This document shows, piece after piece, positions 5,443 through 30,820 of a DNA stretch of 44,762 nucleotides (its first letter is position 1; the number at the start of each line of letters is the position of its first letter). The stretch is from an uncultured Bacteroidota bacterium (GTDB taxonomy: Bacteria > Bacteroidota > Bacteroidia > Chitinophagales > Chitinophagaceae): positions 87,327 through 132,088 of the forward strand of contig CAIWHI010000271.1 in assembly GCA_903912435.1 (NCBI GenBank), in the 5' to 3' direction. The notes under the pieces are model-generated. The model had not been told where the DNA came from and searched no databases. It saw only the letters and a list, made by a program, of their open reading frames with translations. The translations under genes were made by a program, and so were the position numbers.

Positions 5443-7938
5443 TTAAGCCTGCATTGCGATTGTTCTCATGTCGGTAACTCTTGGAACTACCTGTGATGTG
5501 TTAGATACCAAGACGATCTTAATGGCAAAAGTCTTAATGGTATCATAGATAGAATCAGTCGTTGTAGAGTAACGCGCGATGTTGTAGTTTGAAGAATACC
5601 TGAACACGGAAGTCTGAGTATTGATCGGAATAGTGCCAATAGCACAGTTTCCTGAAGTAAACGTTAGATTACTAGCTACGATTACTGCGGTACTATTTGG
5701 TACTGCAATGATCTGTCTTACGTTAAAGCCGTTTGCATTTGCGGGTGTGGCATCTGTGATATAGATGAAATTACCGGGTTGGAACGCTGAAGTAGATCCT
5801 GTAGAAGGCACTGAAACCGTTGTAGTAGTTGAACCACCGGTACCACCAAAAGCATAAACCTGAGTAGACTGAGGAAGGTCATAGCTCAGTTCTACGTAAT
5901 CATTACGATTTACAAGAGAAGATAAGAGAGCCGGTGAAGACGTCTCTGCCATCTGAGTCCATGGCTTATTGTTGAATGCATCACCATCAGCTGCAGCGAT
6001 ACATTTAGCATAGACTTGGAAGTTTGTACCCGGTGGACGATAGGCGCCCAGATAGCTAATGATATCTTCTGCATCTTGACCCTGATCGAGCACTACGTTC
6101 TTTGAGATGTAGCGTGTACCAAATATTCCATTGCCAAGATCTTCAGAGAAAGCAGTCACCGCAGTAACATTTGCTGTCATTGAGTTATTAGTATCGGTGA
6201 TAAATGATGTGCCATTAGCGCTAAACAAACCGATATTCAATGCATTAGAAGAAGCGACATTAGATATCGCAATGAAAGTCGTATTAGAATAAGTCACTAT
6301 TCCATAAGAATTCGCGATAGTGTTTGACATCCAAATAGTATCACCGACATTGATCTGGCCAGATGTATTAGCAACTGTTAAGAAGAAACCATTTAATGAA
6401 GATGATGGTGAGATCTTATTGTGGGTTAAGGTAGTAACATTTCTAATCCTATCAATGTATGGTGATACTTCGTTATTAGAAGTTATCAGATCTGTTTTGA
6501 TAAGAAGAGAGCTAGTTCCAGGACTACCACCAATTGGATTCGCGAACTCATTGCTACGAGACATGATCAGTCTTTGCTGATCAATGAATTCATAAGGAGA
6601 ATCAGGAGTTAGAGAAGTATAAGATGAATCAACAGACTTAGTATTGGAGATGCCCTTAAAGTTCCAATCCTGTGATGTTAACTTTGGTGAGATGTAAGTA
6701 AACTGTGAAGTAATTGAGTCATAGGAAACATCCACCAACCCAGCATTATTTGCCGAGGCACCTGAAGACAAACCGATTAATAGATTATTACTAGAACCGG
6801 CAAAGTTAATCGAGGCGTTTGAAGTAACATTGTCCAAGATAACTAAACTTTTAGTTCCAAGTACTGCTTTAGAAGAGAACACACCTGTTAGAGCGGCATC
6901 TGCTTTAACTCGGCCAATGATGGCTGAGCTATCGGCAAAAGCAATTGCTGGTGTAACGGTTAGTCTTCTGTTAGTAGCATCGGCTGCAGTGATCTTCACT
7001 ACTTGAACCTGAGATCTTGTATTAGTACCAACATAAATGTAATCATTGACTGTGAAATCACTAGTCATAGAAGTATTTGCATCTGGAACCGTAATTACAT
7101 TACATGCAGAAGTAGTAACGACATTTTGATATGCTGTAGAAGGAGATGCGGCAGTTTTACCAGATGTTGCACCGGTAATTGTATTAGTAGTTGCAAATGC
7201 GCCTTGAACGTTCGATAGAAGTACTAAAGTTGTATTTGAGAAATATACCACACCATTTGCAAATAAACCTGATCCTACTGTCTGATTAACTACTTCACCA
7301 CCAGTGAAAGTATTTGAACCAGAGATAGTTAATGAAGCCAATTGAAGGTTATTGTTTGCAACTACTACCTGTTCACCAGGTGAGAAAGTGCCAAGTACAT
7401 CTTTTACAATGAAGAAATCTGTGTTGGAATTTTTATAAACCGCATAACCAGAACTAGCAGAAAACTGAGCTGTATAAAGATTATACTTCATAGACTCATT
7501 CTGGACAGGAGTAAAGTTCAAATCATTAGAAGATATGAACAGAGATCCAAGCTGATTGTTAGTAAAGATAGGAGCACCTGATACAGCATCTGTGTCACCC
7601 AAATTGGCCGTCCAGATAGTATAGTTTGGATTACCGCCAACTGGAACCACGACGATTGCATATTGAACATTTGCTTGCAAGATAACCGGTGTATCAAACG
7701 TGAAATTTGTAACCAAAGAGCTATCTGGTGAAGTGACTACAGATGTAGCTGGTAAGATCTTAGAAGCAAATGGTAAGACGTTTTGTGTAGGATAACCATT
7801 ACTTGTTTCACGGATTTGAACTTCTACCCCCAGCGCAGAATCTGCAGCCTGGAAATAGAGGTCTAAGCCTGTTAGGAATACTGCTTCTACACCAGTTGCT
7901 GGTTCGACTGCAATAAATGTTTGTGCAATTGGCTTCAT
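5443..7938 (-). CDS. Virion structural protein, 831 aa
   Basis: Long ORF in the baseplate/fibre operon; MKPIAQTFIAVEPATGVEAVFLTGLDLYFQ N-terminus resembles T4-like fibre/baseplate-associated proteins. Confidence 0.75.
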   Translation of the reverse strand: MKPIAQTFIAVEPATGVEAVFLTGLDLYFQAADSALGVEVQIRETSNGYPTQNVLPFASKILPATSVVTSPDSSLVTNFTFDTPVILQANVQYAIVVVPVGGNPNYTIWTANLGDTDAVSGAPIFTNNQLGSLFISSNDLNFTPVQNESMKYNLYTAQFSASSGYAVYKNSNTDFFIVKDVLGTFSPGEQVVVANNNLQLASLTISGSNTFTGGEVVNQTVGSGLFANGVVYFSNTTLVLLSNVQGAFATTNTITGATSGKTAASPSTAYQNVVTTSACNVITVPDANTSMTSDFTVNDYIYVGTNTRSQVQVVKITAADATNRRLTVTPAIAFADSSAIIGRVKADAALTGVFSSKAVLGTKSLVILDNVTSNASINFAGSSNNLLIGLSSGASANNAGLVDVSYDSITSQFTYISPKLTSQDWNFKGISNTKSVDSSYTSLTPDSPYEFIDQQRLIMSRSNEFANPIGGSPGTSSLLIKTDLITSNNEVSPYIDRIRNVTTLTHNKISPSSSLNGFFLTVANTSGQINVGDTIWMSNTIANSYGIVTYSNTTFIAISNVASSNALNIGLFSANGTSFITDTNNSMTANVTAVTAFSEDLGNGIFGTRYISKNVVLDQGQDAEDIISYLGAYRPPGTNFQVYAKCIAAADGDAFNNKPWTQMAETSSPALLSSLVNRNDYVELSYDLPQSTQVYAFGGTGGSTTTTVSVPSTGSTSAFQPGNFIYITDATPANANGFNVRQIIAVPNSTAVIVASNLTFTSGNCAIGTIPINTQTSVFRYSSNYNIARYSTTTDSIYDTIKTFAIKIVLVSNTSQVVPRVTDMRTIAMQA

Positions 7939-10900: not shown

Positions 10901-12236
10901 AAAGCTTATAGACAGCATCAACGCCTGGAGTGCCAGAAGAATAGGCTACACCGCGAACATATGCTGTACCAATCTTAGTTGAAGAAGAATAACCAGCCAG
11001 GAAAGTCTTATTGGTGATAGCATTCTTAGCAGCCGAGTGCAGTTCTACTTGAACGATGTTGTCATTATTGAAGTCACCGACAAACTGATTAACATTGAAG
11101 TAGTAACCATAGTTAGCAGAAACAATTTGGTTTGCTACTGTCTCTGTGTCGATACCTTTACGAAGTGGAACAGTATTGTTATTGATGAACTCTACCCTAT
11201 AACCCTTCACATAGCCGATACCCGGTGAAGAGACAAGTGACATATAATTGGTATTAGCATTACCAGAAGAGTCAGTCTTGATCTGAGTAGAAAGTAGGAA
11301 TGGATTGACTACGTAGTCACCACTTGTTTCATAAGTGCGACGTGCCATGTCTGCACCAAGTGCTGCATACTGCGGATCTGACTTAACCGAAACAGGTTGA
11401 CCTGCAGAGAAGTCACAGAGTGAGAAGAACGTAGTGGTATTAGCCGTATCAGAGGTAGCCCTTGTAACCAAGTTGGGAATAATCTGAAGGCGATGAGCAC
11501 CAGGAGCTGAGTAGTTTGGAGAACCAGCTGCGTTGTCTACTAGGTTGTTGTCAATTTCTGGAGTGATAAGGGTTTCAGTAGCAGCAAAGCCAACCGAGAT
11601 ATTATCTGGTACATTGCTATACTTGCTAATGACAAGTGTTTGAGCAGGAACCCTAAGGAAGAAGCCCTTCTTGAAGATCACACCTTCTGTAGTAGTGAAA
11701 GCATAACCAGTGCCTGTTGAATTAACTACAGTAGCAACAACCACGTTACCAAGTTGAGCTCCAGCTCTAGTAGTTAATTGTAGTGACTCACCATTAGCAA
11801 AAGCCTGCTGTACAGCACCATTTACGTAAGTAGTTGAGTTCAAATACTTAACATAAAGAGTGTTAAGGTTTGGATCCTGTGACTGATAACCACCGATTGT
11901 ATTAACTACTATTGCATTCAAACCGCGTGGATTAGTAATTACTAAGCCTTGGAAGGAAGCAATATTAGGAATGGCATAGTTATTGGCATAAGTATCATTG
12001 ATCTTAACATAGTAGTAATTATTGTCAAAGGTAAAGGAGCAACCTTCAACTACAGATCCATCCTTATAAATGTTACGGCCGAACTTATTGATCTGATCCT
12101 GCAGCATAGACTGCATACTGTTAAGCTCACGAGTCTGAACCGCAATAGATGGTCTATACAGAACTTGGTAGTAGTTCTTCGTCTGGTTGAAGTCGTCGAA
12201 GTAGGGCTTAGTAGAGATATTGGTATCTAGGGTCAT
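7962..12236 (-). CDS. DUF4815-like virion structural protein, 1424 aa
   Basis: N-terminus NYYQVLYRPSIAVQTRELNSMQSMLQDQINKFGRNIYKDGSVVEG is typical of DUF4815 proteins of T4-like phages. Confidence 0.75.
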   Translation of the reverse strand: MTLDTNISTKPYFDDFNQTKNYYQVLYRPSIAVQTRELNSMQSMLQDQINKFGRNIYKDGSVVEGCSFTFDNNYYYVKINDTYANNYAIPNIASFQGLVITNPRGLNAIVVNTIGGYQSQDPNLNTLYVKYLNSTTYVNGAVQQAFANGESLQLTTRAGAQLGNVVVATVVNSTGTGYAFTTTEGVIFKKGFFLRVPAQTLVISKYSNVPDNISVGFAATETLITPEIDNNLVDNAAGSPNYSAPGAHRLQIIPNLVTRATSDTANTTTFFSLCDFSAGQPVSVKSDPQYAALGADMARRTYETSGDYVVNPFLLSTQIKTDSSGNANTNYMSLVSSPGIGYVKGYRVEFINNNTVPLRKGIDTETVANQIVSANYGYYFNVNQFVGDFNNDNIVQVELHSAAKNAITNKTFLAGYSSSTKIGTAYVRGVAYSSGTPGVDAVYKLYLFNVNMAPGYSVANVKSVVYQVASAFVGVADVVLTYSSTIGANIAVLQDTANEIMVHPFGQKALSTTGFASEQFVYRNRANANFLTTGVMSLTLPSADGTGSEQFYQQGSYSTSQEQTYIIIPTATGYSANKTGTVSGTSGSNALTGSGTAFTSQYTVGDYIYIYSEAAPQRITAIASDISLSLANNLGTSPSSNTHQKVWPAGVPINFNTAARTISATATTATLTLGETTNAAFQSSVYLDVLRSSTRSIQKSINRGSLVQINISNNAGGTTGPWCLGLPDVFQLNHVWVGSGTYSNANADQVSRFYIDNGHRDAFYGLAYLYSTGPVSNTSTLLISVDNFTKSETQGHGYFNANSYPIDDANTANTLAIQTYQIPQYVSRNTGTTSDLRDCIDFRPYAANTANLVTTTTNITTNPVTTTTISVPTPGSYLPSPDSFYEASITHYLPRVDRIALTTGGSMVINEGISSNLPAAPLEAPGTMTIGLVSIPPYPSLTPSVAKQYNRYDYAVQITMQQTRRFTMADIGKISNRIDRLEYYTSLSLLEQSAQSLQIRSSTTGQNRFKNGIMVDPFKDFTLSNTNDPQYRIAIDSSRNEGRPYFSTHKVGMYFDSVSSSNVQKTGDMVTLPYTTSVYQSQPYASKYHNCIEGNVYTYRGTITLDPPGTVDPDLTVNPDIVSNIDLSANWVNLQQYIGTAWGTSWGAWTTTGSSTSTQTGASQLVGQTQNADGSIAQNYQTQVINTTTSQIQQLGQQLSVQPTQTQVNLGNYVTNVSLLPYIKPTFILFKAVGMKPSAKLYAYFNSVPVSAQCMPVTPYSGSITTVGGVATANDGSLVYYDTKGNTYKFTSLNWGGTLSADSTGTVYGIFAVPGNTFNSGQLEFKLTDISNLSQGESAVTTQATSTYFGSPISVQTSQAVLQVRSATVSTQEVIQQQTVQQSSVSYTSSVISLPSPAVNPSTPPSPSAYDGRGESSGRDFGGG

Positions 12237-12247
12237 ATATTCCTCGA

Positions 12248-15200
12248 TTAAAACTGTATAACCAGCTTGAACTCTTCTTTATTTACAGCGGTCCTTGTGA
12301 CGGGCTGGATGTTTTCCATGTAGACTACCTTGCCAGATTCCCTGACCAGCTGAGGGTAAGTTATCAATGAGTAGGAGTTCACTTGGCCGATAGCTCCAGA
12401 AGTCTGACCCACAATGTTATTTGGTTGAGCCTGGAATCTGTTAGCACCGTTGATATCATTCAGTACTAGAACCGGAAGCACCTGTGAAACGACAGCTGTA
12501 GAACTCGATCCATTATTTATAGTGTGGCCAGCAACGAAAGCCAGTGACTGATTAACCGATGTAAGCTTGACATAGGAACTATTAGCAAAGATGACTACAC
12601 CGTTTGCTCCAGTAGTTTGATCGGTAAGAGTTTGACCATTAGAGAAGCTACCTGACATTGAAGTGATGGTCAAGTCTAGGTCATTAGAGGTGGAGACAAT
12701 TCTGGCATTAGCAGATGTAAAGTCTTGCTGTACGAATTCATTGTTAGTAAAGGTACCAGAGCTAGAAGTCAGCGTGATTCTAGCTGTTTGATTGAACTTA
12801 AGGCCAAAGGTAGAAACCTGATCTGTAGCTCCATTAGCGATCGAGATATCAGTAATGACCGCATAAGCATTGGAAGAGGAATCATAGAGAGTATCACCAG
12901 AAACGAACTGGCCGACTACGTTGGATAGCTGGAGCTGTGTATTGCTGTAAGCAGATGTCACAACAGCATTAGCACCAGAAGTTACTTCCGATACTACCTC
13001 GGCAGTAACACCAGGAGAGAAGTAGATAACATTGGCAGTTACCGTGTTGGCAGTAGTACCAGAGTAATAACCACGTAGAGTATAAGCAGTGTTATTAGCA
13101 AATGTACCCTTGACCGACTTCAACTGCAAAGCAGTGGAGTTACCCGATACCACAATACCAGCCGCATTTGAAGTCGACTGAACTACCACTTCTCCAGGAG
13201 TCCATGAACCTAGACTGCCGATAACGTAGTTTGATAGAACAGCATTGACACGATCGAAAGATCCCAGAGTTACTCTAACGTCAGCGAACTGAGGATCTTC
13301 CAGGAGTCCAATTCTTCTATAAGTGCCATAAGTCGGGAAGTAATAAGACTCATTAGGACCTGTGTCGAAGGTAACATCGATACCAGCATAGCGAGCACCA
13401 AGTTCTGTCATTACATCGAACCCATGACCGTGAACAGGCGAGATAAGCGGCGTAGCCGCGGCGCCGGAACCGTATACCCCATTAGCGACGAAAGACACAT
13501 TAGCGAAGGTATAGTTAGTACCGGTGTTAATCATTTCTACAGAGGTGATGTTATTAGCAGAACCGAAGGAGTTGTTTACCACTCCAAGGCCCACAGCATT
13601 AGAACCATCACCAGTAATCAACACGGTAGGCCCGATCTCGTATTCTGTGGAGTCATTCGGAAGGACCATGGTGCCGATAACTGTGGCATTGCCAGTAACC
13701 GCTCCATTCAGTAGGAAGTTCGCCTTCTGACCGAGGATGAAGCTGCCAGAGTTGTTGTTAATGGTGATGTTCGGGTTGGAAGTAGCCGAGTTCAGTAGAT
13801 AGCGAATCTGAGAGGACTCGCCCTTGACGTAAAAGTTGTTAGCCCAGAAGTAAGTGTTCGACCAATTAGCGCCGTTAACCGTTGTGAGGAACACCTGAGA
13901 CGTGTTAGCGTAAGCCACGATGGCATTAGCGCCTTGTGTGATATTAGCAGCGCTAACCAGATCCACCAGTTCGCCAGCAATGAAGTACTGACCGACAATG
14001 GAAGAATTAGAGATCGATAGATTCAAGCTGGTAAGGTTAGTGTTGACCACAGAACCATTTGCCTGAGTGACCGTAATAGAAGTAGGTTCTGCGGCTACAG
14101 GGACAGTATAGTAGACATTGGCTAGTAGAGTGTTGTCGAATGCGATGTTGACATTGACTGTGCTAGTGTTTACAGCCGTAACTCTGCGGACATTTGTGTT
14201 AGCATTCGTGCCTACCCTAATGAAGCTGCCGACCGCATAGCTAGTAGTGAAGCTTGTCTGGGCAGTGTTAGTAGAGACGACAGTGTTACCACCAGAACTG
14301 ATGTTAACCGTTCCAGGCTGCAGAGAACCAGAAGACACGGAGTCGATAAGAGGATAATACAGTGAGAACGGAGTAGCTAGGCTAGATCTGGCGACCTGGA
14401 TAGTAGAGCTGTTAGCCGTAAGAATAGTACCAGTTACACCTGTGTTAGCCTGAACAATTGTATCACCGACATTGAAGTAGCCGGCAGGATAGAGATAATT
14501 GATGTAGTCCACAGGCTGCTGAACTGTATAACCAGTCGATACAGTGCCACTGATACTGCTAAGGTCTAACCTGGCAAAAGTCTGGAACGGAGTAGAGCTG
14601 CTAACACGAACAGTTTTAGCACCACCAGAGCTAGAAGCTATCTGCCTGATCTGCCCTGCACCGAACCCAGCCTTGAGGTAGATAGAAGACTTAGCATAGA
14701 AGTTATCATATGCAGAGGATGTATTAGGCAGCTGAATGGTGAAGGCATCGATGAACTTGACAATGTTGCCCTTCTCATAGACCTGATAGTTGCTGCCACC
14801 GTTCGTGATCTGAATGGCCTCGATTGTGCCAGGAACAGCATTACTCTGAACATTAGCATTCTGAATGGCAGGGATATAAGAAGTCGTAGTGAACTTGGTG
14901 TTGGAAGTGGAGTCGATGGTGTACATATACTTCCAGATGTAGCCATCGGCTGCCTTGAAAGAACCTGCAGAGCTAATAAGTGTCGGCTTAACAGTGGAAG
15001 GAGCACCATAGCTATTGAACACACACTTGTAGACTTGGAACTGATCTGTCACTACAAAAAACTGCTTGGTATAAAGATCCGGATCATTTGGATCATACTG
15101 ACTATAGACAGTGCCAGTGGCCCAGTTATACCTCGGGATCATATTGATGACATCCCCAGAACGGACTAACTTACCGAACAGAAGATCATCATAAACAGTC

Positions 15201-19841: not shown

Positions 19842-20306
19842 GCAGCTGGGCCCAGGTATTCGAAGTCCCAGAGCATAAATCGATCGTCGGCTAGCACGCA
19901 TTTGAGCATTTTAGGTAGTCCTTTTTAGATCAATAAAATAAGACTCATCATAATCATAGCTGCCGAAGAAGAAGCCAGACCGGGTCGGCAATAGCTTAGC
20001 TGCACGGCTGGGGTGGGCCAGCACATCATTGCAGACGTCTAGCAGGTTACCCAGCTTTTCACGGCTAACATAGTAGCTACCACAGTCATCATTACCATTC
20101 TGGACGTTATCCACGAACCATGCATGGATGGCATTGGCCTTCCGCCAGTAGCAGACTTGGATAGTCACCTAAGCAATATTGCCGGCATCAAAGTCACCCA
20201 GCTCCGGCAAGGCATCACGAATAGCAACCGCGATATCAATATCCCGTGCACCGGCATAATCGCCCTAGATGTTACGCCGAGCTTGCAAAGTCATGTCTAA
20301 ACCCAT
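19840..20306 (-). pseudogene. Interrupted phage small-protein gene (MGLDM...YWRKANAIHAWFVDNVQNG..DDCGSYYVS...LLPTRSGFFFGS.DYDE.YFIDLKRT...), two in-frame TAG codons and a probable +1 frameshift
   Basis: Strong SD AAGGAGGT before ATG at 20306; TAG at 20267-20265 and 20171-20169; TAA at 19913-19911 with the likely C-terminus MLKCVLADDRFMLWDFEYLGPAA in the +1 frame. Confidence 0.7.
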
Positions 20307-20319
20307 CTTCTTTACCTCC

Positions 20320-20838
20320 TTATTGATTTGATATAACCGCTTTTCCAGAGACTTTAGCATTGCCAAAGACTTTAACATTGCCAGATACACCAGCATTGCC
20401 AGAGACTTTAGCATTTTCAGAGACATTAGCATTGTCAGACACACGGGCATCGCCAAACACCCAGGCATTGTCAGACACCCAGGCATTGTCAGACACCCAG
20501 GCATTGTCATAAATCATAGCATTGTCAGACACCCAGGCATCGCCAAACACAAGGACATCGCCATAAATCATAGCATTGTCATAGACTTTAGCATTGCCAA
20601 ACACAAGGACATCGCCATAAATCATAGCATTGTCAGACACACGGGCATCGCCAAACACACAGGCATTGTCATAGACTTCAGCATAGCCAGAGACAGTAGC
20701 ATTACCAAAGACTTTAGCATTGGCAGAAACCAAAGCTTTGCTAGAGACAGTAGCCGTGTCAGCAACCCAGCCGCCACCATTCGAGTGCTGATGGGCTGCT
20801 ACTGGACCTTTACCGTCTCCAAAATCATACTTGGTCAT
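20320..20838 (-). CDS. Hexapeptide-repeat (beta-helix-like) protein, about 172 aa from MTKYDFGDGKGP
   Basis: Repeats of DNAxVFGDARVSDNAxV type; ATG at 20838 preceded by AGGAACAAAGAAC. Confidence 0.75.
   Translation of the reverse strand: MTKYDFGDGKGPVAAHQHSNGGGWVADTATVSSKALVSANAKVFGNATVSGYAEVYDNACVFGDARVSDNAMIYGDVLVFGNAKVYDNAMIYGDVLVFGDAWVSDNAMIYDNAWVSDNAWVSDNAWVFGDARVSDNANVSENAKVSGNAGVSGNVKVFGNAKVSGKAVISNQ
20340..20760 (-). repeat. 18-nt in-frame tandem repeats (for example TGGGTGTCTGACAATGCC in tandem)
   Basis: Three adjacent near-identical 18-mers at about 20459-20512 and many diverged copies on both sides. Confidence 0.9.
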
Positions 20839-20860
20839 GTTCTTTGTTCCTATCTGCTTA

Positions 20861-20930
20861 ACCATTATGATCAATATAACCAGCCAGCAAAATTAGGTAC
20901 ATGCTCCTGGTGAATAGCTGCTATGCATGC
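20861..20930 (-). promoter_or_regulatory. Promoter/operator cassette copy 1 for the hexapeptide-repeat gene
   Basis: Minus strand CATAGCAGCTATTCACCAGGAGCATGTACCTAATTTTGCTGGCTGGTTATATTGATCATAATGG. Confidence 0.65.
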
Positions 20931-20941
20931 TAGAGCGGCTA

Positions 20942-21901
20942 TTAACCCCCTGCCATTTCGAGGGCCAATTCAAGAGCCTTGGTCTTAACGTTACGGTTGA
21001 ACCCGTACCAGGAAGAAGCCAAACGGCTGTCGGCACTACGACCAAGCAAGTGGTCGGTCATATAAGTTACGGAGTTGAAATTAGACCACCAAGTTCCGGC
21101 AGACATTTCGGCGCCGGGTTGAGTCTCAAGGATATCGAAAGCCAGCTTGGCATTCCGGCTGATCGCATTTGGATCATCCTTCTTGGAAGCAGTCGTCATG
21201 GGGAACACCTTCTTGAAGTATTCCATCGTCAAGTCATTCTTGGCAGTCTTCGAAGACAAGAACTCAGCCATCGTCTTGTACTTAGCAAGCTTTTCCTTGG
21301 CGATACCAAGCATCTCCTTGACATTATCACCATTGAACTGATTACGGTGGCTGATTTTAGCAAACCGTTCGACCTTGGTATTCAGCGACAGAGTAAGAGT
21401 GTTATTGCAAACCACTCGAATCGGAGTAAATCTAACATCGGTAGAGAACCCATACCGGTGGTTATTGGTGAACTGAAGATAAGACTCGACGGTATCATTA
21501 CCATTCAGAGTAAAGCCATCCTTAATCTTAGCCAGGAACCAGACAATCTGACCACCAGCCAAAGAACCGGCGGTGTGCATTTCCATGTCACCTTCCATCA
21601 CAAAGTCATTAAAGAACTCAGCAGCTTCACGATTCTGAACTTCATTCCAATCATCACTGACGATATCAAGAATCTTGTCATCGAACGATCGAACCAAAGC
21701 CGATCGACCAACATCTACTTGCTTACCACCAACAGTAGCATAAGCACGAACCTTTTCAACAGTCCAGTCAAGACCTGCTTCCTGCAGCATCTGTTCTGGG
21801 GTCAGGTCATTGTGGACCTTAACACCAAGACCATGCCAAGGAGTATCACCAGCATAAGCCATCTGAGCCTTGCCATTAACCATTTCGATATTGTGAGACA
21901 T
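20942..21901 (-). CDS. DUF932 / phage-plasmid-like protein, 319 aa
   Basis: GDTPWHGLGVKV N-terminus and YLQFTNNHRYGFSTDVRFTPIRVVCNNTLTLSL motif typical of DUF932 (TIGR03299) proteins. Confidence 0.8.
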   Translation of the reverse strand: MSHNIEMVNGKAQMAYAGDTPWHGLGVKVHNDLTPEQMLQEAGLDWTVEKVRAYATVGGKQVDVGRSALVRSFDDKILDIVSDDWNEVQNREAAEFFNDFVMEGDMEMHTAGSLAGGQIVWFLAKIKDGFTLNGNDTVESYLQFTNNHRYGFSTDVRFTPIRVVCNNTLTLSLNTKVERFAKISHRNQFNGDNVKEMLGIAKEKLAKYKTMAEFLSSKTAKNDLTMEYFKKVFPMTTASKKDDPNAISRNAKLAFDILETQPGAEMSAGTWWSNFNSVTYMTDHLLGRSADSRLASSWYGFNRNVKTKALELALEMAGG

Positions 21902-21935
21902 TTGAACTTTACCTTTATTTGATTGCTATAAGCAG

Positions 21936-21964
21936 ATTATACCAAGATAATTTTATTGTGTCAA
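21936..21964 (-). promoter_or_regulatory. Consensus sigma70-type promoter TTGACA-17-TATAAT for the DUF932 gene
   Basis: Minus strand TTGACAcaataaaattatcttggTATAAT; exact hexamers and 17-nt spacer. Confidence 0.8.
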
Positions 21965-21981
21965 CCGTTTTTTAGACTTAA

Positions 21982-22173
21982 TCAGAGATATGCAAACTCA
22001 TCTTCGTCTTCGTCTTCTTCGTAAGAGAAGAATTCGCTGGCTTCGGCCATTTCCTTGACCGAGCTTTCGCTCAACCAGTTCAAGCAAGCCTTGAGAACTT
22101 CGTCTCGATCGAGAATACCTTCTTCGATTGCATTCAGGATTTTGTTAGTGCACTCACGAACATGAATATACAT
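21982..22173 (-). CDS. Hypothetical acidic protein, 63 aa
   Basis: Short ORF with SD-like AAGGAGAG and an upstream cassette promoter. Confidence 0.65.
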   Translation of the reverse strand: MYIHVRECTNKILNAIEEGILDRDEVLKACLNWLSESSVKEMAEASEFFSYEEDEDEDEFAYL

Positions 22174-22193
22174 TCACTTACTCTCCTTATTCA

Positions 22194-22258
22194 TCATATG
22201 ATCAATATAACCAGGCAGCAAAATTAGGTAAATGCTGGCTGGTGCATATCAGCTATTC
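22194..22258 (-). promoter_or_regulatory. Promoter/operator cassette copy 2
   Basis: Minus strand AATAGCTGATATGCACCAGCCAGCATTTACCTAATTTTGCTGCCTGGTTATATTGATCATATGATGA. Confidence 0.65.
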
Positions 22259-22447
22259 ATCCAAAGCGGCGGTGACTTCGTAAACGTCGACTCCATAGTA
22301 CTCACCCGTGTTTGTTTCCGTAAACTTCAAAGCCGCAGTCTCGGCCAGTTGCCTGGAAGAATATACGCCCATGACTTCGCCAGGAACGAAATCCAACAAG
22401 CCAGCACAGTCGATAGTTCGGTTCTTATTGACTAGAAAGACGTTCAT
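22253..22447 (-). CDS. Hypothetical small protein MNVFLVNKNRTIDCAGLLDFVPGEVMGVYSS... (start trimmed from 22459)
   Basis: ATG at 22447 follows GGAG and the stop of the upstream small ORF. Confidence 0.6.
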   Translation of the reverse strand: MNVFLVNKNRTIDCAGLLDFVPGEVMGVYSSRQLAETAALKFTETNTGEYYGVDVYEVTAALDE

Positions 22448-22448
22448 A

Positions 22449-22586
22449 TTAGACTCCAAAAACCTTGATCATTACCAAGACGGATACGCCAAGGATGACA
22501 ATATACATCAAGATCGATAGGAGCATGGCCGAACCATGCTTATAGTCGTCAGGGGTAAGTCCATCCTGATCGATCAGCATCTGCAT
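22449..22586 (-). CDS. Small membrane protein, 45 aa: MQMLIDQDGLTPDDYKHGSAMLLSILMYIVILGVSVLVMIKVFGV
   Basis: Read directly; below the track cutoff; one hydrophobic segment; directly downstream of cassette copy 3. Confidence 0.6.
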   Translation of the reverse strand: MQMLIDQDGLTPDDYKHGSAMLLSILMYIVILGVSVLVMIKVFGV

Positions 22587-22595
22587 TCCCTTATT

Positions 22596-22636
22596 CCATT
22601 ATGATCAATGTATCATGGGTCCAAAATTAGGTAAAC
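22596..22636. repeat. Left arm of a 41-bp perfect inverted repeat
   Basis: ccattatgatcaatgtatcatgggtccaaaattaggtaaac is the exact reverse complement of 22931-22971. Confidence 0.95.
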
Positions 22637-22659
22637 AGACTTGATGCATAGCTCCTATG
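22596..22659 (-). promoter_or_regulatory. Promoter/operator cassette copy 3 (dyad CATAGGAGCTATG at 22647-22659)
   Basis: Minus strand GTTTACCTAATTTTGGACCCATGATACATTGATCATAATGG with an upstream dyad. Confidence 0.65.
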
Positions 22660-22754
22660 ATACCAGATTATAGCATCATCCAAGTTCACATTTTGATCAT
22701 CGGGAGAGCAAAGCTAATGATATCAACCACTTAAGCAAATATGACTATCTAACC

Positions 22755-22923
22755 ATATCAATGGCTTGACTTGAAACAGCGTCTCTCGCGCTGCTAGACC
22801 TCATCAGGTTGATAGATCTACCTTAAAGCGAGACGAGAGAGCTCTGGCGATCCAAACTATTTTCAAAAAACTTAAAATAAATTGCCCAACCTTTTCAACC
22901 ACTTGGGCCTAAGCCATTGATAT
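22755..22923. ncRNA. Candidate structured RNA or structured DNA element (origin-like), strand unknown
   Basis: 13-bp outer pairing ATATCAATGGCTT (22755-22767) with AAGCCATTGATAT (22911-22923), enclosing stem TCTCTCG+CGCT (22782-22792) / AGCG+CGAGAGA (22827-22840) and stem GCCCAA/TTGGGC (22884-22908). Confidence 0.4.
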
Positions 22924-22930
22924 TGTTGCT

Positions 22931-22971
22931 GTTTACCTAATTTTGGACCCATGATACATTGATCATAATGG
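22931..22971. repeat. Right arm of a 41-bp perfect inverted repeat
   Basis: gtttacctaattttggacccatgatacattgatcataatgg; matches 22596-22636 inverted. Confidence 0.95.
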
Positions 22972-22997
22972 TTAAGCAGATAGGAACAAAGAAGATG
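22931..22997 (+). promoter_or_regulatory. Promoter cassette copy 4, followed by an orphan leader
   Basis: Same leader GGTTAAGCAGATAGGAACAAAGAA as cassette copy 1, but the ATG is followed by ATC TAG. Confidence 0.6.
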
Positions 22998-23016
22998 ATC
23001 TAGATCGTCGATGATG

Positions 23017-23090
23017 TATAGCTCCTATGCACTAAGCAGCATGTACCTAATTTCGCCAGCCGGTTATATTGATCATATGATGAATAAGGA
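23017..23090 (+). promoter_or_regulatory. Promoter/operator cassette copy 5 for the AAA ATPase gene
   Basis: TATAGCTCCTATGcactaagcagcatGTACCTAATTTcgccagccGGTTATATTGATCATATGATGAATAAGGA. Confidence 0.65.
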
Positions 23091-23099
23091 AACTAACTG

Positions 23100-23954
23100 A
23101 TGCCTCGTGGCGTATATGTCCGCAAGAACTCCAATGTCAAGACCAACACCGGCATGAACAAGATCATGCACGTGCAGGTTCCTGTGATCGTCGAGACCGA
23201 TGAGCAAATCGAGGCTAAGCTCACTGAGCGCTTTGAGGTGCTCGAGGAGATGGCTCAGGCTGCGGTTGATGGCGACATCCGTGCCTTGATCGTGTCCGGT
23301 CCTGCCGGTCTTGGTAAGTCCTACACCGTCGAACAGGTGATCACGAAGGCAGACATTTCGGAAGAAAGCATTGTTAAGGGTTACGTCAAGGCGACTGGTG
23401 TTTATAAGTTGCTGTATCAGCACAAGAACCGCGGCGATGTCTTGGTGTTCGATGACGCTGATACTGTGTTCTTCGATGACATTTCTCTTGGCTTCTTGAA
23501 AGCCGTGTTGGACTCCAGTGATCGTCGTAACGTCTGCTATCGTGCCGAATTTAGCCTGATCGATGAGGAGACTGCCGAGCGTTTGCCCAAAAGCTTCCAG
23601 TTCGATGGCACGATCATCTTCGTGACTAACTTAGATTTCGATGTCATGATCGAACGTGGCCACAAGCTGGCTCCTCACCTGCAGGCACTTGTTTCACGTG
23701 CGCACTATATCGACCTGGCTATGAAGAATGCGCGTGACTACCTGATGCGCATCCGGATGGTGATGAAAACCGGCCTGCTGGATAAGACCGGCATGGATCA
23801 GGCAGCTCAGGCCGATGTCATGGACTTCATCGAGGAGAACCATATGCAGCTGCGTGAGCTGTCTCTTCGAATGGCTCTTAAGATCGCTGCTCACCGTCGC
23901 AAGGGTGGCAATTGGAAGCGTAGTGCCCGTGTTACCTGCATGAAAGCAGCGTAA
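23100..23954 (+). CDS. AAA-type ATPase, 284 aa
   Basis: Walker A GPAGLGKS, Walker B VLVFDDAD, FVTN sensor-like motif. Confidence 0.8.
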   Translation: MPRGVYVRKNSNVKTNTGMNKIMHVQVPVIVETDEQIEAKLTERFEVLEEMAQAAVDGDIRALIVSGPAGLGKSYTVEQVITKADISEESIVKGYVKATGVYKLLYQHKNRGDVLVFDDADTVFFDDISLGFLKAVLDSSDRRNVCYRAEFSLIDEETAERLPKSFQFDGTIIFVTNLDFDVMIERGHKLAPHLQALVSRAHYIDLAMKNARDYLMRIRMVMKTGLLDKTGMDQAAQADVMDFIEENHMQLRELSLRMALKIAAHRRKGGNWKRSARVTCMKAA

Positions 23955-23994
23955 CATTAGCTAACGTTGTTAAAGAACGTATCATGGCCATATG

Positions 23995-24007
23995 CATAGC
24001 TGCTATT
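23995..24007 (+). promoter_or_regulatory. Isolated dyad CATAGCTGCTATT without the TACCTAATTT box
   Basis: Matches the dyads of the cassette family upstream of a small-ORF cluster. Confidence 0.4.
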
Positions 24008-24052
24008 TGGTCTGACCCTAAGTAATAAGTAATAAGTAATAAGGAATATAAT

Positions 24053-24136
24053 ATGATCGAGATCGGTAATAATTTGACCAGCATCATCTATGCGGTGCTT
24101 GGTATTGCATTCCTCTATTTCGTTTGGTTCAAATAG
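24053..24136 (+). CDS. Micro-membrane protein, 27 aa: MIEIGNNLTSIIYAVLGIAFLYFVWFK
   Basis: Read directly; AAGGAATATAAT ahead of the ATG; single hydrophobic helix. Confidence 0.5.
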   Translation: MIEIGNNLTSIIYAVLGIAFLYFVWFK

Positions 24137-24180
24137 ATGAGCGAGAGAGAGAATATAAATCACAATACGAGGATAATAAT

Positions 24181-24261
24181 ATGAATATCGCCGCCGCTGC
24201 CGCCGTCCGCCTGACGTTCGGCATTGGTCTATTCGTTTACTGCGAAGGTGAGTACCTATAA
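24181..24261 (+). CDS. Micro-ORF, 26 aa: MNIAAAAAVRLTFGIGLFVYCEGEYL
   Basis: GAGGATAATAAT SD-like sequence; TAATG overlap with the next gene at 24261. Confidence 0.5.
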   Translation: MNIAAAAAVRLTFGIGLFVYCEGEYL

Positions 24262-24491
24262 TGAATGAAAAAGAAGTGATTGTTCGTATCGCAAATAAAG
24301 TCTCACAACTTCGTATCGATATTCTGAAGGAAGAAGGATTGCAGCCAGATGTCGCGCTGGCTATTGGATCGGCGATGTTGTCCGAGGCAGAATTCCTCTA
24401 TCGATCCGTCCTAGGACCCAAGAATACGGCACAACTTTTATATATTGCGGCAGATGAAAATGCCACTCGATCCGCGGATGATATCACGTAA
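24261..24491 (+). CDS. Hypothetical protein, 76 aa
   Basis: ORF coupled to the upstream micro-ORF. Confidence 0.6.
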   Translation: MNEKEVIVRIANKVSQLRIDILKEEGLQPDVALAIGSAMLSEAEFLYRSVLGPKNTAQLLYIAADENATRSADDIT

Positions 24492-24493
24492 GA

Positions 24494-24545
24494 CATAGGA
24501 ACTATGCAGGTAGGAGCATGTACCTAATTTTTAGGCCATGGTATT
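24494..24545 (+). promoter_or_regulatory. Promoter/operator cassette copy 6 (dyad CATAGGAACTATG at 24494-24506)
   Basis: CATAGGAACTATGcaggtaggagcatGTACCTAATTTttaggccatGGTATTCT. Confidence 0.6.
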
Positions 24546-24636
24546 CTCCGCTGTCTCACATCAACCCAGATTTAATTTTAATTGATTTAAATCTAAATTA
24601 TGATCCACGTAGATATTACCAACAACTGTTACAAAT

Positions 24637-24650
24637 ACAACAATTGTTGT
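24637..24650. repeat. Perfect 14-nt palindrome ACAACAATTGTTGT
   Basis: Read directly in the noncoding leader between cassette copy 6 and the 24738 gene. Confidence 0.8.
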
Positions 24651-24674
24651 GCCTGAGGCGTTTAATTTACCGTT

Positions 24675-24711
24675 GATTTATGCTCTGGGACTTCGAATAC
24701 CTGGGCCCAGC
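24675..24711 (+). repeat. 37-nt perfect inverted copy of 19845-19881
   Basis: gatttatgctctgggacttcgaatacctgggcccagc on + here and on - at 19845-19881; encodes MLWDFEYLGPA in both. Confidence 0.9.
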
Positions 24712-24737
24712 GGTTACTCTTCCGGAAGAATAAGATA

Positions 24738-25157
24738 ATGGAAAATATATACGATCATTTTGAGAACACCATCAAGGAATATTTTGGCGAACGAATGAAG
24801 ACAGATGAAGAACTATGTCGCAAAATCTGGTCTTCTCTTGCTAATGTAGATTGGTATTATATTGGTGAGCGGCCATTGCTACTACAAGTGTCGTATTCTT
24901 TTCGAGCGGCTGGTGGAATGATTGCCAATATCATCGAGAGGGGTGACTACATGGATTGGTATTGTAGTGGACCAGATGGAATTGTCAACAATGAATTCCG
25001 CTATGCTATGAGGAAGGTTGGATATCTGGCTGATGATGTTGGTATGCTCTGTGATGGGCCGGGTTGTATTGAAAAAGCAACATGTGGCTGGCCTGATGAA
25101 AATGGTGGACCATATCGTAACACATGCTATAAACACTATAAGATGCACAATAAATAA
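24738..25157 (+). CDS. Hypothetical protein, 139 aa, with CxxxxC/C..H-type residues near the C-terminus
   Basis: ORF in a packed accessory operon. Confidence 0.65.
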   Translation: MENIYDHFENTIKEYFGERMKTDEELCRKIWSSLANVDWYYIGERPLLLQVSYSFRAAGGMIANIIERGDYMDWYCSGPDGIVNNEFRYAMRKVGYLADDVGMLCDGPGCIEKATCGWPDENGGPYRNTCYKHYKMHNK

Positions 25158-25170
25158 AGGATAATTAAAT

Positions 25171-25431
25171 ATGAAAAACGTTATCGATGTGACTTTTACT
25201 TTCTCTCGGTGTGTTCTGGAAGATGGATACAAGCGAGATGTAGAAAACTTTACTAACACATTCGAGCATAATGATGAAGATACCTATGGAAATTTACTGG
25301 AGAAATTTCAGATTATGCTTCAGGCTATAGGATACGAGCTCGGAGATAATCGTGTGATGATCGTAGATCCTAGTGAAGTTATTACTGATATTACCAATGT
25401 AGTCGAATTCTTTCCTAAGGATGATGAATAA
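25171..25431 (+). CDS. Hypothetical protein, 86 aa
   Basis: ORF with AAGGATAATTAAAT leader; TAATG overlap with the next ORF. Confidence 0.65.
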   Translation: MKNVIDVTFTFSRCVLEDGYKRDVENFTNTFEHNDEDTYGNLLEKFQIMLQAIGYELGDNRVMIVDPSEVITDITNVVEFFPKDDE

Positions 25432-25610
25432 TGGTTGAAGCAGATAATGTGCCTTTTGGTAAGTCCGAGTTGGTGATGGCGCCATGGGGAAAAGAAAATG
25501 CTCACACCTTCTTGATGCCGAGCTGGAATGGTAAGACTAAATATGCTGTAGTCATGCAACCCGTCAATAATAAACCGGTTCGCTGCAGCGTTTTTAAAGT
25601 TGACACCTGA
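25431..25610 (+). CDS. Hypothetical protein, 59 aa: MVEADNVPFGKSELVMAPWGKENAHTFLMPSWNGKTKYAVVMQPVNNKPVRCSVFKVDT
   Basis: Read directly; just under the track cutoff; coupled start. Confidence 0.6.
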   Translation: MVEADNVPFGKSELVMAPWGKENAHTFLMPSWNGKTKYAVVMQPVNNKPVRCSVFKVDT

Positions 25611-25628
25611 CTTTTTCTAGTATAGAAT
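25600..25628 (+). promoter_or_regulatory. Sigma70-type promoter TTGACA-17-TAGAAT for the tRNA
   Basis: TTGACAcctgactttttctagtaTAGAAT, ending 9 nt before the tRNA 5' end. Confidence 0.75.
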
Positions 25629-25637
25629 ACACTTAAT

Positions 25638-25714
25638 GGCCACGTGGTCCAATTGGATAGGTCAAGCGCCTTCTAAGCGTTTCGGTGCAGGTTCGAATCC
25701 TGCCGTGGTCGCCA
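25638..25714 (+). tRNA. tRNA-Arg (anticodon UCU), CCA encoded
   Basis: Acceptor GGCCACG/CGTGGTC, anticodon stem AGCGC/GCGTT with loop CTTCTAA, T arm GCAGG-TTCGAAT-CCTGC, discriminator G then CCA. Confidence 0.93.
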
Positions 25715-25762
25715 AGCTTTGGCCCCAATCATACTTTCGAAGACAGTGAGGGTCTCGCTAAG

Positions 25763-25828
25763 ATGCAAGACCGAATCAACAATGGTCTTCGTTTGTTTGG
25801 CAAATATTATCGGAATCTTTGGTCATGA
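25763..25828 (+). CDS. Possible micro-ORF or gene remnant: MQDRINNGLRLFGKYYRNLWS
   Basis: Open frame extends back into the tRNA region; TCATGA overlap with the next start at 25825. Confidence 0.35.
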   Translation: MQDRINNGLRLFGKYYRNLWS

Positions 25829-26004
25829 CGATATTCACTAGAATCACCTATGGAACATTACTATATGTCTTGGCTTTGTTTCCAATCATGTTCGCAGTAA
25901 TTTTAGTGGAAAAGTGGTGGATGGCACCTATCATCTACTTGTTGATGACGATTGGAGATGTATTAATCAAGATATCATTTAAGTTATTCAAGGGTGCAAA
26001 ATGA
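25825..26004 (+). CDS. Small membrane protein, 59 aa
   Basis: Strongly hydrophobic ORF between coupled neighbours. Confidence 0.6.
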   Translation: MTIFTRITYGTLLYVLALFPIMFAVILVEKWWMAPIIYLLMTIGDVLIKISFKLFKGAK

Positions 26005-29482: not shown

Positions 29483-30820
29483 TTAGTAGTTTCCTAGTCC
29501 CATAATTCGTCTGTAAAGAGAAACCAATTCTTCTCTTTTGTCCTGTGCTGCCTGTTGAGCAGATGCCGTGTTAACGATTTGATTATTGTTTATGGTCATC
29601 TGAGTTGTGGTATTATTCGTAACGTTTGAAATTTCATCAGCCGTCGACTTTTGATTTAATTCAAAACCTTTTGCCGGTGTTGCTGGAATTGGTTTTACTT
29701 CTTCAGTCATAAAATATAATGATGGAGAAATCTGTCTATTGATATTTTCTTCTGACCAGCCTAAATGTTGTAAACCTACTCGACGCTGATCAATTAAGTT
29801 ATTATAAGTCGACTTCTCATTTGCCAAGGTAGTAGTAAGCTTAGTTACCCTATTATTCGTAACGGTAATATATTGCTGACTATAGTTACTTGGATTCTTA
29901 GATATATTATCTAATTCTTCTTTAGCTTTTTTCAATTCGGTTTCATGTTGTATGATTTGAGGTCTAAGCTCTTGTTCTGTAATTGATGGAACATCATAAC
30001 CCCTATCGGTATCGGAAGGTGTAATGATTATTTGAGCTGCTAGTCCAACAGGCCCAAAAGCAAGTTCTCCAGCAGCTCTTTTGATAGCAGTACTGAAAGC
30101 AAGTTCTCCAGCAGCTCCTTTGATAGCAGTACTGGACAAAGTCTTGCTTACACCAGCTACATCAGCAGCACTGGTAGCACCTAATCTATCTCCTGCAACA
30201 ATACTAGCATCATTTGCTGCTGTTGGTAGTTTATCAATGGACTTGACTGGTTTGTATGGTTTCAGGTCTTCCGGGATTGTTGCATTATCATTAGCCGGGT
30301 TTGGAAGCTTAGCTGTTTCTTTAACTTCCGGAATATTCTCAACTACAGGTTCTTCTATAGTTGGCTTATTATCGGGGTTTGTTTCGGCTTTGGGTTTTTC
30401 TTCCGCCTCTCCCGGTGCTGGTTTAGCTCTAGATACATTCTTTTTAGTCAAACGATTGTATAGCTTCTTTAAACCAAGCGCGCCTAACATACCGCCCATT
30501 CCATCAATCGCACCCATGAGAATATTCGAGAGTCCGCTTCCACCAAGCCCTAGATCACTATCTTCTATGAGTGTGAGTGTTCTCAAGATCCTAGTAAGGA
30601 GCTCATTTTCCTGCTTTGCTACAAGTAAAGTCTTTTCCAACAAAATATTCGTTTCAACCATGCTCTGAGCAGCAGACTGCATACTCCCACTTTTAGAAGA
30701 ACGGGAGTAATGCTGCTTAGATGAGAATATCGGAAAAGCTTTTTTGAAAGGTGAAGCAAGACCACGAATGGCAGAACGACCCATCTGTGTGGCAGCACCG
30801 ACTCTTGGTAATGTTGCCAT
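29483..30820 (-). CDS. Hypothetical structural/tail-associated protein, 445 aa
   Basis: ORF in the lysin/holin operon; low-complexity linker and coiled-coil-like segment. Confidence 0.65.
   Translation of the reverse strand: MATLPRVGAATQMGRSAIRGLASPFKKAFPIFSSKQHYSRSSKSGSMQSAAQSMVETNILLEKTLLVAKQENELLTRILRTLTLIEDSDLGLGGSGLSNILMGAIDGMGGMLGALGLKKLYNRLTKKNVSRAKPAPGEAEEKPKAETNPDNKPTIEEPVVENIPEVKETAKLPNPANDNATIPEDLKPYKPVKSIDKLPTAANDASIVAGDRLGATSAADVAGVSKTLSSTAIKGAAGELAFSTAIKRAAGELAFGPVGLAAQIIITPSDTDRGYDVPSITEQELRPQIIQHETELKKAKEELDNISKNPSNYSQQYITVTNNRVTKLTTTLANEKSTYNNLIDQRRVGLQHLGWSEENINRQISPSLYFMTEEVKPIPATPAKGFELNQKSTADEISNVTNNTTTQMTINNNQIVNTASAQQAAQDKREELVSLYRRIMGLGNY
30057..30134 (-). repeat. 39-nt tandem duplication (13 aa) in the 445-aa gene
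   Basis: aaagcaagttctccagcagctcYtttgatagcagtactg in two adjacent copies. Confidence 0.9.

Follow-up and report, generated by a model that had tools for sequence, protein, structure and literature searches.

What are the promoter-like repeats that stand before one accessory gene after another in a stretch of phage DNA assembled with an uncultured Bacteroidota bacterium, and what part might they play in the arrangement of those genes? The stretch in question, referred to here as the window, is 44,762 nucleotides long and constitutes positions 87327-132088 of contig G000:C271 (hereafter C271; 132,088 bases), which sits in a 4.88-Mb genome bin of 1039 contigs whose organism may differ from the host of the phage. 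An earlier interpretation of the window, the sequence-only reading, had described a family of at least six mobile-looking promoter/operator cassettes, likened to elements known from T4-type phages. The answer that we regard as probable is that these repeats are early-promoter cassettes with an operator-like dyad, carried by a T4-superfamily myovirus and serving as joints for homologous recombination. Positions given below are those of the window unless identified as contig positions.

Alignment of 26 cassettes from five contigs on their TACC yields the consensus TGcATAGCnGCTATgCA - about 12 nt - TkTACCTAATTTT - TGGTATATT or a variant - ATCATATGATGAATAAGGAAAC - ATG. Read in the sense of their strand, the copies of the window present a 13-bp dyad, 12 nt, T[G/T]TACCTAATTT[T/C] and then a -10 element, and the spacer between TkTACC and TATATT, TACATT or TATTCT measures 17 nt. 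Placing the -10 hexamer at -12..-7 puts TkTAC at -35..-31, and many copies have TGG immediately ahead of the -10 (displaced by one base in those with GGTTATATT); the layout of a T4-type early promoter, with its -35 element at -35..-31, 17-nt spacing and TGn, is present. The sequence-only reading had put the gap between box and -10 at about 8-9 nt; the actual distance is 7 nt before GGTTATATT and 10 nt before TACATT. Most copies precede open reading frames (ORFs) equipped with a Shine-Dalgarno leader. The arrangement of a T4 middle promoter, for which a motA gene and the MotA box TGCTT at -30 would be needed, was not found: the box here is TACCTAATTTT, and neither MotA nor AsiA had a match on C271.

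In T4 itself, early promoters combine GTTTAC at -36..-31 with TGn and a -10 element (PMC1524935, PMC2988021). The cassettes thus share with them the TkTAC-type -35, the 17-nt spacer, the TGG before the -10 and the placement before novel ORFs, and differ in having no apparent A-rich UP-like stretch at -40..-44, in a conserved C at -30 and a TAATTTT downstream of the -35, and in that the repeated unit includes a conserved leader and an operator-like dyad. On these comparisons, the view that the cassettes are T4-type early promoters is supported; transcription from them, and its early timing, would be expected from such a layout.

That the copies form a genuine family is evident from their distribution. 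All six copies of the sequence-only reading were found where it had placed them, on the strands that it had given, and its count proved too low: a weight matrix built from the window copies located six more beyond the window, bringing the number on C271 to 12. The additional copies comprise a divergent pair at contig 21752(-)/21794(+), a tandem pair at contig 31941(-)/31836(-) and a second divergent pair at contig 37113(-)/37155(+), in which 37155(+) stands before the gene for a 160-aa protein that has an HELVH motif. Within the window, TACCTAATTTT (at most one mismatch) occurs at the six cassette sites and nowhere else. When a matrix was trained solely on other phages, 10 of the 12 copies took ranks 1-10 among all positions of C271, with scores of 8.9-32.6 bits as against 5.8 for the best non-cassette position; over 60 Markov shuffles, the best score of this matrix averaged 10.0, one shuffle reaching 20.8. 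The remaining two copies, at contig 21794 and 110370 (window 23044), fell outside its top 20 and scored 39.9 and 39.0 bits, respectively, with the matrix trained on C271. Similarly, the dyad is found at 11 of the 12 copies with scores of 10.0-24.5, the 99.9th percentile of random positions being 7.0. Matches to the pattern dyad-13nt-TKTACNTAAT with at most two mismatches number eight in the entire bin, all of them on C271, and a search of 398 other genomes of the order allowing one mismatch returned five isolated matches only. A chance origin of the cassette copies is excluded: the motif is not scattered over random positions elsewhere, and a search of genome and relatives finds copies that stand out on C271 and recur in sister phages.

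Several further matches were considered and set aside. Eight exact-pattern matches among 85,462 genomes have no dyad, no Shine-Dalgarno leader and no neighbouring copies; they were attributed to chance, and these eight core matches served as a chance control. Contigs L058, L060 and L063 show a core match with dyad and leader absent, likewise attributed to chance, and the single match of the consensus cassette to 50,697 phage records was judged meaningless. An exact-pattern scan of IMG/VR with the -10 version peculiar to the window (GGTTATATTGATCAT) gave no match, because the sister phages use TGGTATATT or TATTCT.

The dyad, with the form ATAGCnGCTAT, is centred approximately 18.5 nt upstream of the -35 element, i.e., at about -53/-54. 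Its distance to TACC is 13-14 nt, shifting by no more than one base despite variable intervening bases, and in both divergent pairs a single common dyad lies equidistant from the two promoters. The form CATAG-N3-CTATG proposed in the sequence-only reading describes a real dyad but is exact in two copies only (22647 and 24494), the others departing from it by one or two changes; the reported lack of a dyad in the copy at 22931-22971(+) was confirmed. The suggestion that a dyad upstream of the -35 resembles an operator has gained ground from the fixed spacing, the sharing between divergent promoters and the recurrence of the same spacing in another clade, and the dyad is best described as a predicted DNA-binding site that behaves like an operator.

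Could the dyad instead act as RNA, as a stem-loop by which the transcript of the upstream gene is terminated or processed, in the manner of the T4 elements? In several copies the stop codon of the upstream gene does fall within the dyad or directly before it (GAT-GAA-TAG in 22245-22257), and some versions fold, with energies down to -5.4 kcal/mol. Several others, however, fail to form a dyad hairpin (-0.7 and -1.6 kcal/mol), the terminator-like sites detected in the window region all lie outside the cassettes, and the dyad lies symmetrically between divergent promoters, a place with no read-through from any gene. Together with a distance to the -35 that is fixed in two clades, these features leave an RNA element improbable.

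The comparison with other clades is the strongest argument for an operator acting at the level of DNA, and against a terminator, since the position is fixed across them. Contigs L101, L102 and L103, whose DUF932 proteins are 64% identical to that of the window, each have three sites at which the same dyad precedes T[GT]TAC by exactly 12 nt, attached to a different promoter core, whereas chance dyads in other loci lie at scattered gaps. An unrelated palindrome, TGATATCA/TGATTTCA, stands 14 nt before TTGAC in L089 and L099; its centre, 18 nt upstream of the -35, matches the window dyad in position. Repeated promoters without any conserved upstream element occur in L055, L068, L081 and L096, conservation in L106 is limited to about 9 nt adjoining the -35, and no phased dyad was present in the Melnitz-2 and phiM12 regions. 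The dyad is accordingly an optional module with a fixed position. As separate observations, the DUF932-bearing contigs L055, L068, L081, L089/L090, L096, L099/L100/L082, L102 and L106 possess their own families of repeated promoter-leader units, of 4 to about 12 copies, and the leader of L099, ATATGATGATGAATAAGGAAACGAAAATG, is nearly identical to that of the window cassettes. Furthermore, a hairpin with a T run lies directly upstream of TGTACAT-type promoters at L102 6073 and 7207, L106 2129, L107 2254 and L113 3991; these resemble, in other clades, terminator-promoter units of the T4 kind.

A protein binding such a site might also belong to the host. The same dyad occurs in two clades that possibly share hosts, and L061, a sister phage of C271, derives from the same metagenome sample as L101. 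Against this, the rest of the bin contains the dyad only three times, in no case followed by the promoter core, an argument that is weak in that the bin organism may not be the host. A host regulator is accordingly viewed as unlikely, and a regulator encoded by the phage is preferred.

The evidence for recombination comes from four sister-phage contigs of IMG/VR, in which the same cassette is found in a total of 14 copies: eight in L054, three in L059, one in L061 and, in L062, an ortholog of the pair at contig 37113/37155. In L054 (10,965 b), the ATPase and DUF932 proteins are 87% and 92% identical to those of the window. The cassette at L054 5802(+) is built as [flank A][core][leader D]. These parts are combined differently in the window: flank A is found at 22934(+) with leader C, which also occurs at 20889(-), and leader D is found at 22623(-), preceded by a dyad. 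In inverted orientation, the cores of 22623(-) and 22934(+) are identical at 43 of 43 nt. Flank, core and leader have therefore been exchanged with junctions inside the cassette, and the copy at 22934(+) reads as a three-way mosaic joined within the core. The dyad itself is not at a detected crossover; the junctions lie in promoter core and leader.

Whole units differ in a corresponding fashion. The unit formed by a cassette, a 45-aa gene and a DUF7336-like gene, which the window carries on its minus strand, lies on the plus strand of L054. When DUF932 and the ATPase gene are taken as the reference, both this unit and a block running from a 139-aa gene through gp33 and gp59 are found on the opposite strand in L054, the block lying on the ATPase side in the window and, inverted, on the DUF932 side in L054. 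The cassette that follows the DUF7336-like gene is succeeded by a 63-aa gene in the window, its place in L054 being taken by a beta-solenoid gene; L054 and L059 have three beta-solenoid paralogs each, five of the six directly behind a cassette. Finally, the stretch after 22934(+) ends ...GAT-GAT-GTA-TAG at the next dyad, where L054 has a 56-aa gene, as might result if the body of a gene between two cassettes had been lost. Homologous recombination between cassettes would explain both the mosaics and the flips.

Two other explanations bear on these data. The first holds that the repeats are ordinary early promoters, shaped by the needs of host RNA polymerase and of the leader, that they play no particular part in shuffling and that the mosaics arose from incidental homologous recombination. 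It draws on the repeated families of L055, L068, L081, L096 and L106 that do without a conserved upstream dyad, and on identities that are no higher within than between genomes (cores 0.71 vs 0.70, leaders 0.46 vs 0.49); given such overall similarity, concerted evolution is not claimed. What it leaves unaccounted for are the perfect identity of 22623 and 22934, leader blocks common exactly to some copies only and exceeding what a promoter needs, junctions that fall inside the cassette beside genes that are flipped or replaced, and a phased dyad that promoter function alone does not explain. We consider it the lesser possibility, though one that deserves to be taken seriously. According to the second, a site-specific recombinase makes its crossover at the dyad, and the units move as genuine mobile cassettes comparable to dif modules or integron cassettes. 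Dyads do bound the units, and gene order and orientation do differ among sister phages; yet the copy at 22934, which has no dyad, was re-sorted all the same, the detected junctions avoid the dyad, and the spacing between dyad and -35 is kept between unrelated cores, a constraint needless for a recombination site. Searches for tyrosine and serine recombinases (PF00589, PF00239; integrase, resolvase) gave no match on C271, and this explanation is very improbable. Of the "mobile-looking" character claimed in the sequence-only reading, the re-sorting has thus been borne out, but with no recombinase found on the contig and the dyad not at the crossover, the cassettes are better read as recombination joints than as self-moving elements.

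The preferred reading, that of early-promoter cassettes acting as recombination joints, can be set out as follows. Each cassette would combine an operator-like dyad, a T4-type early promoter and a Shine-Dalgarno leader that runs to the start codon. The promoter (TkTACC, a 17-nt spacer and usually TGG before TATATT or TATTCT) would be recognised by the housekeeping RNA polymerase of the host, and a dimeric, probably phage-encoded regulator most likely binds the dyad, such that the early accessory genes could be switched as a single regulon. Since copies of core and leader occur in either orientation, recombination between copies is possible, and it may exchange, invert or delete the intervening genes, each of which would remain attached to a working promoter in the process.

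Several observations weigh against this reading. Firstly, a generic sigma-70 consensus scan returned 8 sites where 12.3 were expected by shuffling and did not single out the cassettes, so that the case for promoters depends on their T4-type layout, their conservation and their place before Shine-Dalgarno leaders. Secondly, PHROG and Pfam scans of approximately 40 proteins for a regulator of the dyad yielded no convincing candidate, the sole small helix-turn-helix candidate being a 78-aa HTH_39-like protein (contig 29552-29788) that scores below the family cut-off. Thirdly, two copies (22934 and 24521) have no intact adjacent gene. Additionally, the sites of L101-L103 do not amount to nine independent cases, because these contigs are closely related, and the sister contigs are fragments that allow only partial reconstruction of the order of rearrangements.

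Inspection of the individual cassettes agrees with the statement of the sequence-only reading that they stand before unrelated accessory genes. Cassette 1 (20839..20925, minus strand) has its dyad CATAGCAGCTATT at 20913-20925, an TGTACCTAATTTT core with TACC starting at 20899, the -10 TATATT at 20873-20878 and the Shine-Dalgarno leader AGGAAC; directly behind it lies a YdcK-like beta-solenoid gene (20320-20838), in which 17 overlapping copies of an 18-nt internal repeat were observed at 20304-20785. Cassette 2 (22174..22257, minus strand) consists of the dyad AATAGCTGATATG at 22245-22257, which contains the TAG stop of the upstream DUF7336-like gene, a core with TACC starting at 22230, TATATT at 22204-22209 and the leader AAGGAG, and is followed by a 63-aa gene (21982-22173) and then the DUF932 gene (20942-21901). 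A promoter of non-cassette type, a perfect TTGACA-17-TATAAT with TG before the -10, is situated directly before the DUF932 gene at 21936-21964(-). Cassette 3 (22587..22659, minus strand; dyad CATAGGAGCTATG at 22647-22659, TACC starting at 22633, TACATT at 22607-22612) has a leader orthologous to that of L054 5802 and precedes the 45-aa gene and then the 64/68-aa DUF7336-like gene.

On the opposite strand, the dyad-less cassette 4 (22929..22999, plus strand), whose 5' flank is orthologous to L054 5802 and whose leader is identical to that of cassette 1, is followed by ATG-ATC-TAG and a short stretch resembling the tail of a gene. Cassette 5 (23017..23099, plus strand; dyad TATAGCTCCTATG at 23017-23029, TACC at 23044, TATATT at 23065-23070, leader AAGGAAACTAACTG) leads into an AAA ATPase gene (23100-23954; PHROG 1250). 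Downstream of that gene an orphan dyad, CATAGCTGCTATT, lies at 23995..24007 (plus strand) without a promoter core; it is probably a decayed cassette, L054 having a full one after its ATPase gene, at 7855. The degenerate cassette 6 (24494..24547, plus strand; dyad CATAGGAACTATG at 24494-24506, TACC at 24521, -10-like TATTCT at 24542-24547) has no Shine-Dalgarno sequence, and the next ORF begins at 24738. Between cassettes 3 and 4 lies a non-coding divergent centre (22660-22929), which L054 has in the same orientation and largely conserved (about 80% over 22710-22971); it has no Rfam match and contains inverted stretches resembling GTCTCTCGC/GCGAGACGAGAGAGC.

The assignment of C271 to a T4-superfamily myovirus is based on a RegA-family protein, UvsY and a sigma-like candidate in the gp55 position, and baseplate wedge proteins are also encoded. 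Its gp6-type protein shows at most 36% identity to any phage in the collection, Caulobacter phage Cr30 ranking best, followed by Sinorhizobium phages and Pelagibacter phage HTVC008M, and the window region has no DNA-level match among phage records. Elsewhere on the contig, 24 tRNA genes occupy 20.2-34.6 kb; in the window, a tRNA-Arg at 25638-25711 is the sole Rfam match within 20000-26000. At contig 12060-13225, an ORF that by eye resembles an intein C-terminus (...GVRTHNT...) lies beside a GIY-YIG-looking ORF.

How do the cassettes compare with known systems? The promoter early stem-loops (PeSLs) of T4-type phages reportedly combine an early promoter with a terminator stem-loop. The parallel drawn in the sequence-only reading is apt in that both are repeated early-promoter elements between the accessory genes of T4-superfamily phages and both are associated with gene re-sorting among relatives, but the terminator stem-loop is absent from the cassettes, its place being taken by a phased short dyad at about -54 that in several versions does not fold as RNA. 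The KorB operator OB of plasmid RK2, TTTAGCSGCTAAA, is likewise a 13-bp dyad situated near promoters and shares the core TAGCnGCTA; its outer bases differ, no KorB-family protein was found in the bin, C271 included, and the likeness is probably a coincidence. In the haloarchaeal virus HGTV-1, a promoter-like box with an inverted repeat precedes most ORFs of one genome half, and shuffling was proposed (PMC3950731); the likeness lies in these features, whereas the virus is archaeal, the promoter of TATA type and the sequence unrelated. Start-associated sequences (SAS) and their extended form (ESAS) in cluster K mycobacteriophages are short elements near the translation starts of varied gene families, half of them with an upstream inverted repeat; the SAS is a 13-bp element beside the start codon with a proposed translational role, and in the ESAS the repeats measure 17 bp and the spacer varies (PMC3203893). 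The similarity is one of layout only: the cassette dyad is nearly fixed to the -35 element, and an SAS-type 13-bp GGGATAGGAGCCC element beside the start codon is absent from the cassette consensus. Promoter-cassette shuffling itself is already known; the new points are an operator position fixed across clades and a mosaic that can be read.

The locus therefore offers a nucleotide-level case of promoter cassettes as joints at which a large phage may rearrange its accessory genes while their expression is kept. It also points to a putative regulator of early genes in T4-superfamily phages without MotA and AsiA. More tentatively, and with slightly less than even confidence, we propose that a phage-encoded, previously undescribed regulator controls the early genes of this MotA-less branch via the dyad at about -54, and that the two palindromes at the same position would represent a general promoter architecture with lineage-specific specificities. 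The dyad would provide a direct bait with which to find such a regulator.

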